Positions 3,219-36,617 of a stretch of 64,000 nucleotides of DNA are shown here, one piece after another; position 1 is the stretch's first letter, and each line of letters starts with the position of its first letter. The DNA is from Armatimonadota bacterium. GTDB taxonomy: Bacteria; Armatimonadota; Fimbriimonadia; Fimbriimonadales; Fimbriimonadaceae. The position numbers were made by a program, and so were the translations under genes. A model generated the notes under the pieces. It worked only from the letters and a program-made list of their open reading frames with translations, did no database searches and was not told the origin of the DNA. The stretch spans positions 310,001 through 374,000 of the forward strand of contig JADFMN010000002.1 of assembly GCA_022563855.1 (NCBI GenBank), given 5' to 3'.

Positions 3219-3294
3219 TGGCACGGTCGGCGGGATTCGAACCCGCGACCCCTTGCTCCGGAGGCAAGTGCTCTATCCACTGAGCTACGACCGC
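3219..3294 (-). tRNA. tRNA-Arg (anticodon CCG)
   Basis: Reading the minus strand: acceptor GCGGTCG, TA, D-stem GCTC...GAGC, anticodon stem CTTGC/GCAAG around loop CTCCGGA (anticodon CCG, decoding CGG), T-arm GCGGG-TTCGAAT-CCCGC, acceptor CGACCGT, discriminator G and an encoded CCA. The first acceptor pair is G-U. All canonical elements are present over 76 bases. Confidence 0.95.
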
Positions 3295-4957: not shown

Positions 4958-5374
4958 CTACGTAAACCTGATAGCTCGGGCCACGTGCCTGACAGGCTTT
5001 GCGCGCGGGCCTGTGGTCCTAAAACTGACCACGATACATGCCGGGAACTTCCCTCTGTACTTCCCGTTCGGCTCCAACGGAATGACGAACTGTTTGTTGC
5101 CTGCGATCTTGCCGCCGGATCCCTTGACGCTCCTATCCACGATGAACGGCTTTTCGGAGCGCTTGACCGGAACCCACTTGCTACCGTTCCAATACTCGAA
5201 ATCGTAACGGGTGATTTTGATATGAAACGGGAACCGGGGCCAGCGTTTTGGAGAGCCGTTCTTTGGACTGCCCTTTGGCCTCTTCAACATGGAAAACGTC
5301 ATCACGTCCGTTGGGTTGTCGGGCTGTACACCGACGATCGGGTCGTATCCGCTAGAATCTGGTCCGTTCGGCAT
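4958..5374 (-). CDS. hypothetical protein, 138 residues
   Basis: Basic soluble protein of 138 residues with no signal peptide, membrane helix or family motif that I recognise. The N-terminal third is rich in Pro, Gly and Lys; the middle (YDFEYWNGSKWVPV) looks like a beta-rich fold. AGGAAG sits seven bases before the ATG, a good ribosome site that favours this frame over the overlapping plus-strand frame at 4731-5207. It starts 23 bases after the cyclase/ATPase/TPR gene stop on the same strand, so the two are probably co-transcribed, and it may be an effector or partner of that regulator (inference). Confidence 0.6.
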   Translation of the reverse strand: MPNGPDSSGYDPIVGVQPDNPTDVMTFSMLKRPKGSPKNGSPKRWPRFPFHIKITRYDFEYWNGSKWVPVKRSEKPFIVDRSVKGSGGKIAGNKQFVIPLEPNGKYRGKFPACIVVSFRTTGPRAKPVRHVARAIRFT

Positions 5375-21630: not shown

Positions 21631-21789
21631 AAAAAAAGGACAGGCGACCGAGACCGGCGGGATGCTAAGATAAGGCGTCTCGCCGGGAACTGCGCGACAG
21701 CAGTGCGGCGAACTCCGCCAGGACCGGAAGGTAGCAACGGTAAGTCGTTACTCTGGGCGACGCACCATTCCCGGCGCCTGTCCTTTTTT
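21631..21789 (+). terminator. outer inverted repeat enclosing the SRP RNA, ending in a T run
   Basis: A7-GGACAGGCG (21631-21646) is complementary to CGCCTGTCC-T6 (21775-21789). The 3' arm runs directly into six T, so closing this outer helix would serve as an intrinsic terminator with the whole SRP RNA as its loop. Confidence 0.6.
21681..21776 (+). ncRNA. ffs: signal recognition particle RNA, small bacterial (4.5S) type
   Basis: Hairpin RNA of the signal recognition particle that binds Ffh. CGCCGGGAA (21681-21689) pairs with TTCCCGGCG (21768-21776). The apical domain has the conserved core GCCAGGACCGGAAGGTAGCAACGGTAA, with its GGAA tetraloop and asymmetric loops. It lies just upstream of dnaX, a common bacterial arrangement. 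Confidence 0.9.
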
Positions 21790-31048: not shown

Positions 31049-33307
31049 ATGAGAATTCGAGGCCTCTCCGTCCTGTTCGCCGTCGGCGCCCTTGGCTTGG
31101 GGGCGGTTTGCTCTGCCCAGACCGAGTCTAAGACCGTGACGTACTCGACCGTCGCAAAGACAGCCGACAAAGTGATCGCAGATATCGCGGCTGAAACTGG
31201 CGAGCAGCTGGAGGTAACCAAGGACGCTCTGCGCCACGTCCTGGTCTTGCACGTCGTAGACGTGCCGCTCGACGAGCTTCTCGACCGGATCGCGACTGTC
31301 ACTTCGTCAAGGTGGACGAAGGAGAGCGACGGTCGACGAACTCTGAGGCCGGACCAGCCGCTGCGGCGGCGTCTTGAGCGAGAGGCTCAGCAGGAAAGAG
31401 CCGCTGCGATTCAACAATCGATCACGAAAATACAGAAGCAGCTGCAGGAAGCCGGCGAACAGGAGTACGGGGCCGGGACGGACACGATGTTTCGCCGAAT
31501 CAGCCCGATGTCGACGCCGGGAAGCGTTGCTCTGGCTAAATTGACCGTGCTACTGCGGCCAGCGGATATCGCAGGGATCAAAAACGGTCAACGAATCGTC
31601 TACTCGACTTCGCCGAACCGGATGCAGCGATCGCTCGGTGGCAACGCGGTCACCTCGATCCTCGACAATTTGGTGGCTGAGCACAATGCCTGGCATCGCA
31701 GCACGGCACAGCAGCGCGAAGAAGAGAGGATTGAGATAGAGAAGAAACTCGTTCTGACGGGGGAGGCAGCAGCGATATTCATGATGACGATCTATGCTCA
31801 GGAACCGAAGCTAATCGATTCTTCTGTAGACGAAGCGCTGCTCGTAGTTGAGCGGGGTGCACCAGGGCAACTAGGTTGGAACGGAGGAATCTCAGTCAGC
31901 CTGTCGCTGCTCGATGCAACCGGCAACGTGCTGCTGTCAGAAGAGATGGGCTTGGGCTCGTCATCTTTTGACAATGATGAATCGGCGGCGACGTCGGGCG
32001 GCGAGTTGGAAGGCGAGGGTGACGAAGAGGTCGACGAATCCGACACCGCGCCTGTGAAGTTCCGTGATATCTCCGTGCAGGTCGCGCGTGTGATTCAGCG
32101 ATTCTCGTTCGAGGGCGGCCCGCCCGAGATTGCGCCGGACGTACTCAAAATCTTCACGTCTCCAGTGCAGAACGAACCGCTGTCGTTCGCTGAATCCGAC
32201 GGCCTTCTGGCCGTCGCTAAGGCGAAGGGTTGGAACTTGGTCGCGAACGTGCCGGACGACTTCGACCTCTCACGTCTGGCGCTGGCAGAGGGGGAAACCA
32301 CCGTCGGCACCGTTTTGGAGGTCATAGGAGGCGACAGCAACGTGGAAGCGATGCTCGATGGCGATTGGTACTCCCTCGTGCCCGCCAACCCGGTTTTGTC
32401 GTTGACGGAACGTCTTGACCGTGCAGCGATGCAAACGTATGTTTCGGGAGTGCGGGCAAGAGGCTACACATTGCTGGACGACATGGCGTTCCTTGCCAGC
32501 AGAATGTCCGAAGAAGCTTCCAGAACGCACGCGGCGCAAGCAATTCGGCTCAGCGGGCATCCGATGGACTTGACGAGTGTGGGCCGCGAGGGGCTTTGGG
32601 AGACGCTGCGATTCTGGGGTTTGCTAAGCTCCGGAGTCAAGCAGAGCCTGCTGCGAGGCGAGTCGCTCAACTTCAATCAGCTCGGCACAGCGGCGCGCGA
32701 TCAAGTCTCAAAGATGGTGTACGGCAGCGGCGCTAACTTAATACCGCGCGCACAGTTGGCAGAGGAGCGGGGCATGACGATGTGGGATCGGCTCGCTACA
32801 CGCAGAATGTCGGGGCAGAGCATAGCAAGCTATCTTAACGAGCCGACGGAGGTCATGCCGGAGGGCCTTCCTGCTATGGGCTCGATCAGCATCAACGTGA
32901 CATCGGGCGGACTCGCAGTGATGGCAAAGCGCGGTTCCAGCAACATGGGTTTCTTCCAAGCCGTGGGCGCAGAAGAGATTGCAACGACTCAGTTCCTGCA
33001 GGATCTAGCAGACAAAGCTGGCAGGGATATGGGGATTTCAAATCTGGGAACGTTCAAGATCGGTACGCGGAACAAATTGCAGATCATGTTTCATCTGTCA
33101 CAAGAGGCGGTGATGGCTCGCTCGCTGAACGATGACTCGATCGAGCCTGGCGCGAGAGTCGTGCGGCTGACCGATTTGCCGGTTGATTTCGCCGCGGAAG
33201 TCAATGCGATCAAGGCTGTGCTGGCCAAGTCACCGTTCGTGACAATGCTGATGATGGGGTTCGGTAGCGCTCAAGGGGCAAAACCGCCGGAGTACGATGG
33301 CCATTAG
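31049..33307 (+). CDS. secreted protein with STN-like N-terminus, first of two tandem paralogues
   Basis: 752-residue protein with signal peptide (MRIRGLSVLFAVGALGLGAVCSAQ). Residues ~35-90 (KVIADIAAETGEQLEV, HVLVLHVVDVPLDELLDRIATVTSSRW) have the pattern of the secretin/TonB short N-terminal (STN) domain; this is my inference. A charged coiled-coil-like segment follows (REAQQERAAAIQQSITKIQKQL), then an Asp/Glu-rich linker near residue 320. No transmembrane barrel or secretin domain is recognised. About 70 percent similar by eye to the gene at 33450. Function unknown. Confidence 0.8.
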   Translation: MRIRGLSVLFAVGALGLGAVCSAQTESKTVTYSTVAKTADKVIADIAAETGEQLEVTKDALRHVLVLHVVDVPLDELLDRIATVTSSRWTKESDGRRTLRPDQPLRRRLEREAQQERAAAIQQSITKIQKQLQEAGEQEYGAGTDTMFRRISPMSTPGSVALAKLTVLLRPADIAGIKNGQRIVYSTSPNRMQRSLGGNAVTSILDNLVAEHNAWHRSTAQQREEERIEIEKKLVLTGEAAAIFMMTIYAQEPKLIDSSVDEALLVVERGAPGQLGWNGGISVSLSLLDATGNVLLSEEMGLGSSSFDNDESAATSGGELEGEGDEEVDESDTAPVKFRDISVQVARVIQRFSFEGGPPEIAPDVLKIFTSPVQNEPLSFAESDGLLAVAKAKGWNLVANVPDDFDLSRLALAEGETTVGTVLEVIGGDSNVEAMLDGDWYSLVPANPVLSLTERLDRAAMQTYVSGVRARGYTLLDDMAFLASRMSEEASRTHAAQAIRLSGHPMDLTSVGREGLWETLRFWGLLSSGVKQSLLRGESLNFNQLGTAARDQVSKMVYGSGANLIPRAQLAEERGMTMWDRLATRRMSGQSIASYLNEPTEVMPEGLPAMGSISINVTSGGLAVMAKRGSSNMGFFQAVGAEEIATTQFLQDLADKAGRDMGISNLGTFKIGTRNKLQIMFHLSQEAVMARSLNDDSIEPGARVVRLTDLPVDFAAEVNAIKAVLAKSPFVTMLMMGFGSAQGAKPPEYDGH

Positions 33308-33449: not shown

Positions 33450-35705
33450 ATGAGAATTCGAGGCCTCTCCGTCATGTTCGCCGTCGCCGCGCTTGGCATC
33501 GGCACGGTTTGCTCTGCCCAGACCGAGTCTAAGACCGTAACGTACTCGACCGTCGCGAAGACCGCCGACAAGGTGATCGCAGATATCGCGGCTCAAACTG
33601 GCGAGCAGCTTGAGGTCACGAAGGACGCCCTGAGCCACGTCCTGGTCTTGCACGTTGTAGATGTGCCGCTCGAAGAGCTTCTCGACCGGATCGCGACAGT
33701 CACTTCGTCCAGGTGGACGAAGGAGAGCGACGGTCGACGAACTCTGAGGCCGGACCAGCCGCTAAGGCGGCGACTGGCGCGAGAGGCTCAGCGGGAAAGA
33801 GCTGCTGCGATTCAACAATCGATCACGAAAATACAAGAGCAACTTCAGGAAGCCGGCGAACGGGAATACGGGACGGGAGCGAACATGATGTTTGGCCCAT
33901 ATGGCCCGATGTCGACGCCCGGCAGCATGGCTGTGGCGCGATTGACCGGCCTGTTGCGAGCGGCAGACGTCGCCGCTCTCGATGAGGGTCAACGGATCGT
34001 TTACTCGACCTCGCCGAACCGGATGCAGCGATCGCTCACCGGCAATGTGGTCAACTCAGTTCTCAACACGTTGGTGGAAGAGCACAATACTTGGTTTCGG
34101 AGCACTGCCGAGAAACGGGAGCAGGAACGGCTGGCGATGCTGGATCAGTTCTCCGAAATGGGTATCGACTCGGCGTTCTTTGAGATGATGACGGCCGGTC
34201 AAGTGCCGAAGTTAATCGATGCTTCTGTAGCCGAAGCGCTGCTCGTAGTTGAGCAAGGATCTTCGGGGATGTTCGGTATGTTCTCGGGAACCTCGGTCAG
34301 CCTGTCGCTGCTCGATGCAAACGGAAACGTGCTGCTGTCAGAAGAGATGAGCTTGGGCTCGCAATATTTCGACTTTGAGGAATTAGCGGCGATGACGGGC
34401 GACGAGGTCGAGGCCGAGGAAGACGAGGGTGAGGAAGAAGTCGACGAAACCGACACCGCGCTAGTAACGTTCCGTGACATGACAGTGAAGGTCGCGCGCG
34501 CGACTCAGCGATTCTCGTTCGAAGAGGACTTGCCCGAGATCGCGCCGGACGTGCTCCAAGTGATCATGTCGCCGGTTCAGTACGAACCGCTGGCGTTCGC
34601 CGAATCCGACGGCCTTCTAGCCGTCGCCAAGGCGAAGGGCTGGAACTTGGTGGCGAACGTCCCGGACGATCTTGATATCTCTCGCTTGGCGCTGTCCGAA
34701 GGAACGACCACCGTCCGCACCGTCTTGGCGATCATAGAAGGCGTTCGCGATGTGGACACGATGCTCGACGGCGACTGGTACTCCCTCATGCCCGCGCGAC
34801 CGGTGGAGTCGTTGAACGAACGGGTAGACCGTGCCGCCGTTCAAACCTATGTCTCCAGGGTGAAGGCAAGAGGTTACGCCTCGCTGGACGACATGGCGTT
34901 CCTAGCCAGCCAGATGTCCGAAGAAGCCTCCAAGACGCACGCTGCGCAAGCGATTTATCTCAGCGGGCATCCGACCGAACAGAACATGATGGCTGGCGAG
35001 GGGCTTTGGGAGACCCTTCGGCTTTGGGGCATGTTGAGCGCCGGAGTCAAGCAGAGCCTAATGCGTGGCGGCTCGATCAACTTCAGCCAGCTCGGCACAG
35101 CGGCGCGCAATCAAGTCTCAAAGATGGCGTACGGCACGGATGCCAATTTGATGCCGCTCCAACAGCTTGCGAAAGAACGAACCATGACGCCGTTCGACCG
35201 GTTGTTTGCTCGGCAAATGGCGGGGCGTGGGGGTGCGACGTACCTCAGCGAGCCGACGGAGGTGATGCCGGCTGGCCTGCCTGGTGCCGGCTCGATCACG
35301 ATCAACGTGACAACGGGTGGACTTGCGGTCAGCGAAAATCCCGCGATCGGGGAGATGGCGTTCTTCCAAAGCGTCGGCGCAGAGGAGATCGCCTTCATCC
35401 AGTTCATGATGGATGCGGCCGATGAGGCCGGTGAGGACATCGGAATCCCAGAACTCGGAAGTTTCAAAATCGGAGTGCGGAACAAGCTTGAGATCGTGTT
35501 TCACCTGTCGCAAGAAGCGGTGATGACCCGCACGCTCAACGATGACTCGCTCGAACCTGGCGCGAGCGTAGTGCGGTTGACCAATCTTCCGCCTGAATTC
35601 GCCGCGGAAGTCAGCGCTTTCAAGGCCTTGATCGCCAAGTCGCCGTTCGCAAGTATGATGATGATGGGGTTCGGCGGCGATCAAAGAATCGAACCGCCGG
35701 AGTAG
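33450..35705 (+). CDS. secreted protein with STN-like N-terminus, second tandem paralogue
   Basis: 751 residues with signal peptide MRIRGLSVMFAVAALGIGTVCSAQ. The first 130 residues are nearly identical to the copy at 31049; divergence is highest in residues ~150-310, and identity rises again from the acidic linker on (FAESDGLLAVAKAKGWNLVANVPDD). The upstream ~90 bases are also conserved. Duplication through the purB 3' end explains this. The last coding bases overlap no other gene; a thioredoxin-like gene follows 18 bases later. Function unknown. Confidence 0.8.
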   Translation: MRIRGLSVMFAVAALGIGTVCSAQTESKTVTYSTVAKTADKVIADIAAQTGEQLEVTKDALSHVLVLHVVDVPLEELLDRIATVTSSRWTKESDGRRTLRPDQPLRRRLAREAQRERAAAIQQSITKIQEQLQEAGEREYGTGANMMFGPYGPMSTPGSMAVARLTGLLRAADVAALDEGQRIVYSTSPNRMQRSLTGNVVNSVLNTLVEEHNTWFRSTAEKREQERLAMLDQFSEMGIDSAFFEMMTAGQVPKLIDASVAEALLVVEQGSSGMFGMFSGTSVSLSLLDANGNVLLSEEMSLGSQYFDFEELAAMTGDEVEAEEDEGEEEVDETDTALVTFRDMTVKVARATQRFSFEEDLPEIAPDVLQVIMSPVQYEPLAFAESDGLLAVAKAKGWNLVANVPDDLDISRLALSEGTTTVRTVLAIIEGVRDVDTMLDGDWYSLMPARPVESLNERVDRAAVQTYVSRVKARGYASLDDMAFLASQMSEEASKTHAAQAIYLSGHPTEQNMMAGEGLWETLRLWGMLSAGVKQSLMRGGSINFSQLGTAARNQVSKMAYGTDANLMPLQQLAKERTMTPFDRLFARQMAGRGGATYLSEPTEVMPAGLPGAGSITINVTTGGLAVSENPAIGEMAFFQSVGAEEIAFIQFMMDAADEAGEDIGIPELGSFKIGVRNKLEIVFHLSQEAVMTRTLNDDSLEPGASVVRLTNLPPEFAAEVSAFKALIAKSPFASMMMMGFGGDQRIEPPE

Positions 35706-35723
35706 AATGGCATTAGGAGAAGT

Positions 35724-36617
35724 ATGGTGGTAGTAGCATTGTTGGCGTCGATTGCAGTCGGTCAAGCGCAACTCGGTCCTGGACAGCAGGTTCCAGACGT
35801 GACCCTCTTGAACATGAAGGGAGAGTCAGTGTCGCTCTCCCAGTTCCACGGCAAGAAGCTCGTCCTGTTCAACTGGGCGTCTTGGTGAGGCTGCCGCGCA
35901 CAACTGCCCGGGTGGCAGACCTTCAACGAACTGCACGACAGCGACGAGTACGTTTTTGTCGCGGTGGCGATGGACGTCGGCGGCATCGCTGACGTCAAGG
36001 ATTTATACGCGGGTGCGGGAGCAAAGTACATAACTCTCGTAGACCCTCAGAACGCGATGGGCGACGCATGGGGTTTCAAGGTAGTTCCGAACGGATGGCT
36101 CATCGACGAGTCTGGAACGATCATCAAGAAGTGGCTCGGCGGGTTCGACGTCAACAGGTCGAACATCATCAAGGACGTCGATGATTTCCTCGACCGTCCA
36201 CCCGTCAAGGCTGGCGAACGGAGCAAGCCGGTCGATGACAAGACGCGAATAGCCAACTTGAAAAAGCAGCTCAAAGCCAACGCCAGCAACGGACAGGCGA
36301 ACCTTGAGCTTGGCAAGATCTTGCTGCGGCAAGACCGCGCGAAGGAAGCCATGCCGTATCTCGGAAAAGCCGTCAAGCTGCTGCCGAAGAACGCAAGCGC
36401 GATGTTTGCGCTGGGTTCCTGCACGCTTGCTCAGGGCGAAAAGAAAGCGGCCCTTGCGATCATCAAGAACGCTCTGAAGCTCGATCCTACCAACTACTTG
36501 ATCCGCAAGCAGATTTGGCACCTCGAGTACCCGGAGAAGTTCCACCCGACGATCGATTGGGGCTGGCAGCGCGAACAGATGGCCCGCGAGCGGGCAGCAG
36601 AGCGCGGCGGCGGCTAG
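35724..36617 (+). CDS. thioredoxin/TlpA-like protein with TPR tail; probable selenoprotein (in-frame TGA 35886-35888)
   Basis: 297 codons with one internal TGA. A short signal (VVVALLASIAVGQ) is followed by a redoxin domain: QVPDVTLLNMKGESVSLSQFHGKKLVLFNWASW, then TGA, then GCRAQLPGW. The TGA (codon 55) sits where TlpA-like proteins have the first active-site Cys, and Cys57 would be the resolving residue (U-G-C). After it the frame stays intact, with cis-Pro loop VVPNGWLID, then TPR-like helices and the ending IRKQIWHLEYPEKFHP.IDWGWQ. AGGAGA precedes ATG 35724. A bSECIS-like hairpin follows the TGA. Alternatives: a nonsense mutation or sequencing error, less likely because the position is exactly the redox residue. 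Confidence 0.75.
35886..35918 (+). promoter_or_regulatory. candidate UGA/bSECIS element for selenocysteine insertion
   Basis: TGA (35886-35888) is followed by CTGCC (35904-35908), loop CGGGT (35909-35913) and GGCAG (35914-35918). The loop G lies 21 bases after the TGA and is the second loop base, within what is known of bacterial SECIS elements (short stem, small loop with an early G, ~16-37 bases from UGA). Confidence 0.6.

Follow-up and report, generated by a model that had tools for sequence, protein, structure and literature searches.

Does the single in-frame TGA of a redoxin gene in an Armatimonadota genome mark a broken gene or a selenocysteine (Sec) codon? The gene lies in a 64,000-nt window (the whole stretch of DNA that was analysed; contig JADFMN010000002.1, positions 310,001–374,000) of a genome of 3.18 Mb in 22 contigs, and its product is almost certainly a redox protein that contains selenium. 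The frame is opened by ATG 35724 and closed by TAG 36615–36617. Its single in-frame stop is the TGA of codon 55 (35886–35888, + strand), within the motif WASW-[TGA]-GCRAQLPGW, and the rest of the frame is open. A preliminary description made from the sequence had reported one TGA at codon 55 of a 297-codon frame, in WASW-[TGA]-GCRAQLP. Its coordinates proved exact, with no other in-frame stop. The features of the locus, in window coordinates, are as follows.

35715–35719, + strand: putative Shine-Dalgarno sequence AGGAG, inferred from the letters ahead of ATG 35724.
35724–36617, + strand: predicted selenoprotein gene with a Redoxin (TlpA/ResA-like) domain and a TPR tail, 297 codons plus the TAG stop.
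35724–35780, + strand: hydrophobic N-terminus (MVVVALLASIAVGQAQ...), probable secretion signal, read from the sequence only.
35781–36161, + strand: Redoxin/AhpC-TSA (thioredoxin-fold) domain, residues 20–146, spanning the TGA (PF08534, 3.7e-17; PF00578, 2.1e-13).
35886–35888, + strand: in-frame TGA, predicted Sec55 in W-U-G-C-R; TGA in 10/10 family members of the phylum.
35904–35918, + strand: putative bSECIS hairpin CUGCC-CGGGU-GGCAG with G at loop position 2; stem kept in 10/10 genes, −7.1 kcal/mol in isolation.
36300–36494, + strand: tetratricopeptide repeats, residues 193–257 (PF13432, 3.8e-10), helical in the AlphaFold model with pLDDT mostly 80–97.
36492–36581, + strand: conserved C-terminal motif NYxIRKQIWxxExPEKFxPxIDWxWQREQ, mostly invariant among six sequences.

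Protein domains were searched using a translation in which the TGA was read as Cys. The Redoxin match runs across the TGA without a break, and the TPR matches fall in the tail; homology continuing past the TGA and a TPR tail had both been anticipated from the sequence. A short hydrophobic start is common to all orthologues in the alignment, which suggests export. AlphaFold (mean pLDDT 71, six-sequence alignment) predicted a thioredoxin fold that leads into the TPR helices; U55-C57 immediately precedes the first active-site helix. The best matches among solved structures are oxidoreductases of the ResA, DsbE and TlpA types.

Sixty related genomes were searched at the protein level and gave five full-length orthologues (46–56% identical); every one has a single TGA, in the alignment column of codon 55. 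The NCBIfam profile NF041054 was searched against 291 genomes of the phylum. The ten top matches each have one TGA, and the weaker matches inspected (L069–L073) have a CxxC motif without a TGA there. An unbiased DNA pattern, in which the active-site codon could be TGA, TGC or TGT, recovered the same ten genes from the 291 genomes and nothing else. TGA was found in 10/10, that is, at the position of codon 55 in all nine other members from the phylum, and the Cys form (TGC or TGT) of the family gave 0 matches in these genomes. In alignments with CxxC relatives, U55 falls on the first Cys and C57 on the second, and one intervening residue is missing, in keeping with the earlier placement of the TGA at the nucleophilic Cys. 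A tree that also included a few CxxC relatives places the ten UGC proteins together in a single group (support 100/100). Pairwise pN is ~0.2–0.3 and pS ~0.6–0.8 ahead of the TGA, and the redoxin part that follows it gives values in the same ranges. With pN well under pS there, the sequence after the TGA is translated and under constraint, and purifying selection differs little between the two sides.

A hairpin, CTGCC-CGGGT-GGCAG, begins 15 bases past the TGA, with 20 bases between the TGA and the loop. The 5-bp stem is kept in 10/10 genes, and the loop reads N-G-(G/U)-N-N. The arm codons CTG and CAG are each present in 10/10; the preceding Gln codon occurs in two forms at 6:4, and the codons of the loop are variable. 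One gene has a Gly to Val change in the loop codon, with the G-U retained. Synonymous codons were resampled under assumed independence, and the hairpin is kept beyond codon-usage expectation (product probability 2.4e-6); this figure overstates independence because the ten genes are related. The published bSECIS model has a 3–9-nt apical loop, a 4–16-bp upper stem, a spacing of 16–37 nt from the UGA, a G at one of the first two positions of the loop, in many cases with G or U next to it, and a minimum free energy of −7.5 kcal/mol or lower (PMC13188914). All ten genes fit this geometry: the loop has 5 nt and the stem 5 bp, loop position 2 is G, and position 3 is G or U. The isolated 21-nt core of the window gene folds at −7.1 kcal/mol against the −7.5 threshold, and three orthologue cores fold at −8.7 to −10.9. 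The bSECIS-like hairpin of the preliminary description therefore stands in position, geometry and conservation, and its isolated energy falls just short. A 55-nt segment, folded unconstrained and without a ribosome, reaches −18.3, with GGCUGCC pairing with the 3′ arm in place of the local hairpin. The local hairpin, not this alternative fold, is the conserved structure. The stem gains no covariation support because its pairs are invariant across the ten genes, and no Rfam family matched at the hairpin site.

The genome encodes the full set of Sec components. tRNA-Sec was detected at 74.2 bits, and ARAGORN also gave a tRNA-Sec with anticodon tca. SelA, SelB and SelD were found at 513.5, 345 and 358.9 bits, respectively, and the check for this machinery that had been proposed with the first reading of the locus thus came out positive. 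SelD (L075; G000:C4:338766–339668, − strand) has an N-terminal in-frame TGA, RLTHLVKCAG-U-ASKLGPTQLAEVL (KCAG-U-ASK), and is thereby itself predicted to be a selenoprotein, as is known for SelD from other bacteria. This TGA probably corresponds to the active-site Cys of E. coli SelD. A second thioredoxin-like protein (L051; G000:C10, ~107.4 kb, TGA at 957) has the sequence DFWAYW-U-GPCRASVP, in which the TGA replaces the first active-site Cys of a WUGPC motif. Its N-terminus is lipoprotein-like, and a strong hairpin directly follows the TGA.

Among the ten genomes with the UGC gene, SelA is present in 9/10, tRNA-Sec in 9/10 and SelB above cut-off in 8/10. The machinery exceptions are incomplete assemblies: G054 (73% complete) has SelB as a fragment, and SelB is missing from G048 (88% complete). 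In G079 the SelA match is spread over three reading frames (G079:C85:47095–48343), which suggests frameshifts or assembly errors; SelB, tRNA-Sec and the UGC gene are present. tRNA-Sec occurs in 35 of 61 related genomes, so its co-occurrence with the UGC gene (P ~0.18) is not significant and is weak evidence when taken alone. The set adds ten TGA-only orthologues, most from genomes with complete Sec machinery.

These observations bear on two readings that do without selenocysteine. A pseudogene or a sequencing error would place a nonsense change in a Cys gene and leave the fragment from ~35964 as the sole product. A plain ORF caller does see 35964–36617 alone, as the preliminary description had expected of standard annotation. 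However, this 217-aa fragment has no active site, the TGA is shared by ten separately assembled genomes with no Cys form found in the phylum, and the two sides of the TGA are under equally strong selection. A sequencing error, such as a miscalled TGC or TGT, is ruled out by the recurrence of the TGA in ten independent assemblies, and this recurrence, together with the equal selection, also leads to rejection of the pseudogene; the probability left to either is negligible. Readthrough, or reassignment of UGA to Trp, Gly or Cys without Sec machinery, would agree with the clearly translated frame after the TGA. Yet TGA terminates 18 of the 42 long ORFs in the window and so is not generally reassigned, which led us to reject general reassignment. 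The genome also has a dedicated tRNA-Sec(UCA), SelA, SelB and SelD, and the TGA coincides exactly with the position of the catalytic Cys and has a SECIS-like hairpin downstream, leaving readthrough or reassignment highly improbable. UGA recoding to Sec is strongly supported instead. The gene has the marks of a bacterial selenoprotein, namely an in-frame UGA at a redox-active site, homology on both sides, the tRNA-Sec/SelA/SelB/SelD set, and relatives with either Sec (TGA in 10/10) or, in the CxxC proteins, Cys. Gene callers would miss the active site and label the remainder a TPR fragment, and the annotation would thereby lose the protein's function. The locus is a warning of such mis-annotation, in which a selenoprotein gene resembles one broken by a stop codon.

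The U-G-C motif had been put forward as differing from the usual CxxC, and it is real. The class itself has been catalogued since 2008, when the Global Ocean Sampling selenoproteome listed 46 Sec sequences of 'Prx-like (UGC-containing)' selenoproteins, commoner in non-marine samples (PMC2398784). It was retained in a 2022 catalogue (PMC9312934), and a 2026 AEM review lists a 'UGC-containing TlpA disulfide reductase family' (PMC13188914). Compared by description, the window protein shares with this class an AhpC-TSA/TlpA-type domain, a UGA-encoded Sec in U-G-C and the bacterial Sec machinery. It fits the family definition, which is the domain plus U-G-C. The consulted parts of these reports give domain and motif, and a TPR tail was not found described in them. 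The gene is a well-supported further example of a class known since 2008, not a new kind of system.

The best NCBIfam match of the window protein is NF041054, WAxxUGC_long (ResA-like WAxxUGC motif-containing protein), at 139.3 bits (E 1.9e-40). The two share the WAxxUGC motif, and profile positions 287–324 also match the IRKQIW...W.WQ motif. The first ~80 positions of the profile have no counterpart in the window protein, whose TPR tail is the longer. The curated equivalog cut-off of this profile is 300 bits, and at 139 bits the protein is a divergent and shorter relative, not a member by that definition. The phylum members of closest architecture, G067 and G249, share the longer N-terminus and score 148 and 181 bits, also under the cut-off. 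The C-terminal motif is present in G067, G249, G079 and G161. This tail also exists on its own: a TPR-only protein at 5001–5363 of PNMZ01000001.1 (L002) carries it (NYVIRKQRWQLEFPEKFHPSIDWGWQREQ) without a redoxin domain, and was the sole match in one scan of genome contigs for relatives.

ResA, TlpA and DsbE resemble the window protein in fold and domain, and their first and second active-site residues align with U55 and C57. The window protein differs in having U-x-C, one residue shorter than the C-x-x-C that defines ResA/TlpA oxidoreductases, in having Sec in place of Cys, and in its TPR tail. We hold it very probable, from the sequence evidence as a whole, that SelB and the hairpin direct Sec insertion into an exported TlpA/ResA-like oxidoreductase with a Sec-Gly-Cys site and a TPR tail. 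A ribosome reaching the UGA at 35886–35888 would meet the hairpin at 35904–35918, which would recruit SelB carrying Sec-tRNA-Sec, and selenocysteine would be inserted at codon 55. The product would be an exported thioredoxin-fold protein that has a Sec-Gly-Cys pair in its active site and carries a TPR tail. Sec55 probably attacks and Cys57 resolves, in a cycle that would pass through a selenenylsulfide. The targets may be disulfides or oxidised thiols of partner proteins, which would be reduced or rearranged, and the TPR tail may hold these partners. From sequence and fold we infer export, chemistry, substrates and the role of the tail, and with them an exported Sec-dependent disulfide reductase or isomerase whose TPR tail would bind a partner.

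Sec could instead be inserted into a peroxidase or a metal chaperone. The AhpC-TSA match and a weak Pfam match to glutathione peroxidase are consistent with such a function, and complexes are known of a thioredoxin-like TlpA bound to ScoI, a copper chaperone, and to cytochrome oxidase subunit II (PDB 4txo, 4txv). Gene neighbours vary by genome and give no functional hint, and no conserved operon partners were seen among the genes flanking the orthologues, as far as these were inspected. Against a peroxidase or chaperone, the closest folds are the disulfide reductases ResA, DsbE and TlpA, and a resolving Cys two residues off suits thiol exchange. We consider a peroxidase or chaperone unlikely, with appreciable weight all the same, and favour the disulfide reductase or isomerase. 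A more tentative proposal, to which we give a rather low probability, is that the TPR-tailed UGC branch is obligately Sec-dependent in the phylum and that Sec-Gly-Cys and the IRKQIW...IDWxWQ tail handle a specific exported partner beyond the CxxC thioredoxins. The Sec-Gly-Cys active site is defined and testable, and we found no study of its chemistry in the literature.

A scan of viral contigs returned no relative, and a virus or mobile-element origin was rejected. Other redoxin matches with exactly one TGA occur in related genomes (G050:C22, G044:C10, G042:C11, G038:C13, G012:C3, G048:C275, G035:C126 and G054:C3) and are possibly more selenoproteins in the order. Directly upstream of the selenoprotein gene, the window encodes tandem proteins of 752 and 751 aa (31049–33307 and 33450–35705) that are 71% identical and have no Pfam match. 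Rfam searches of the window detected a bacterial small SRP RNA at 21681–21779 and a tRNA gene at 3222–3294.
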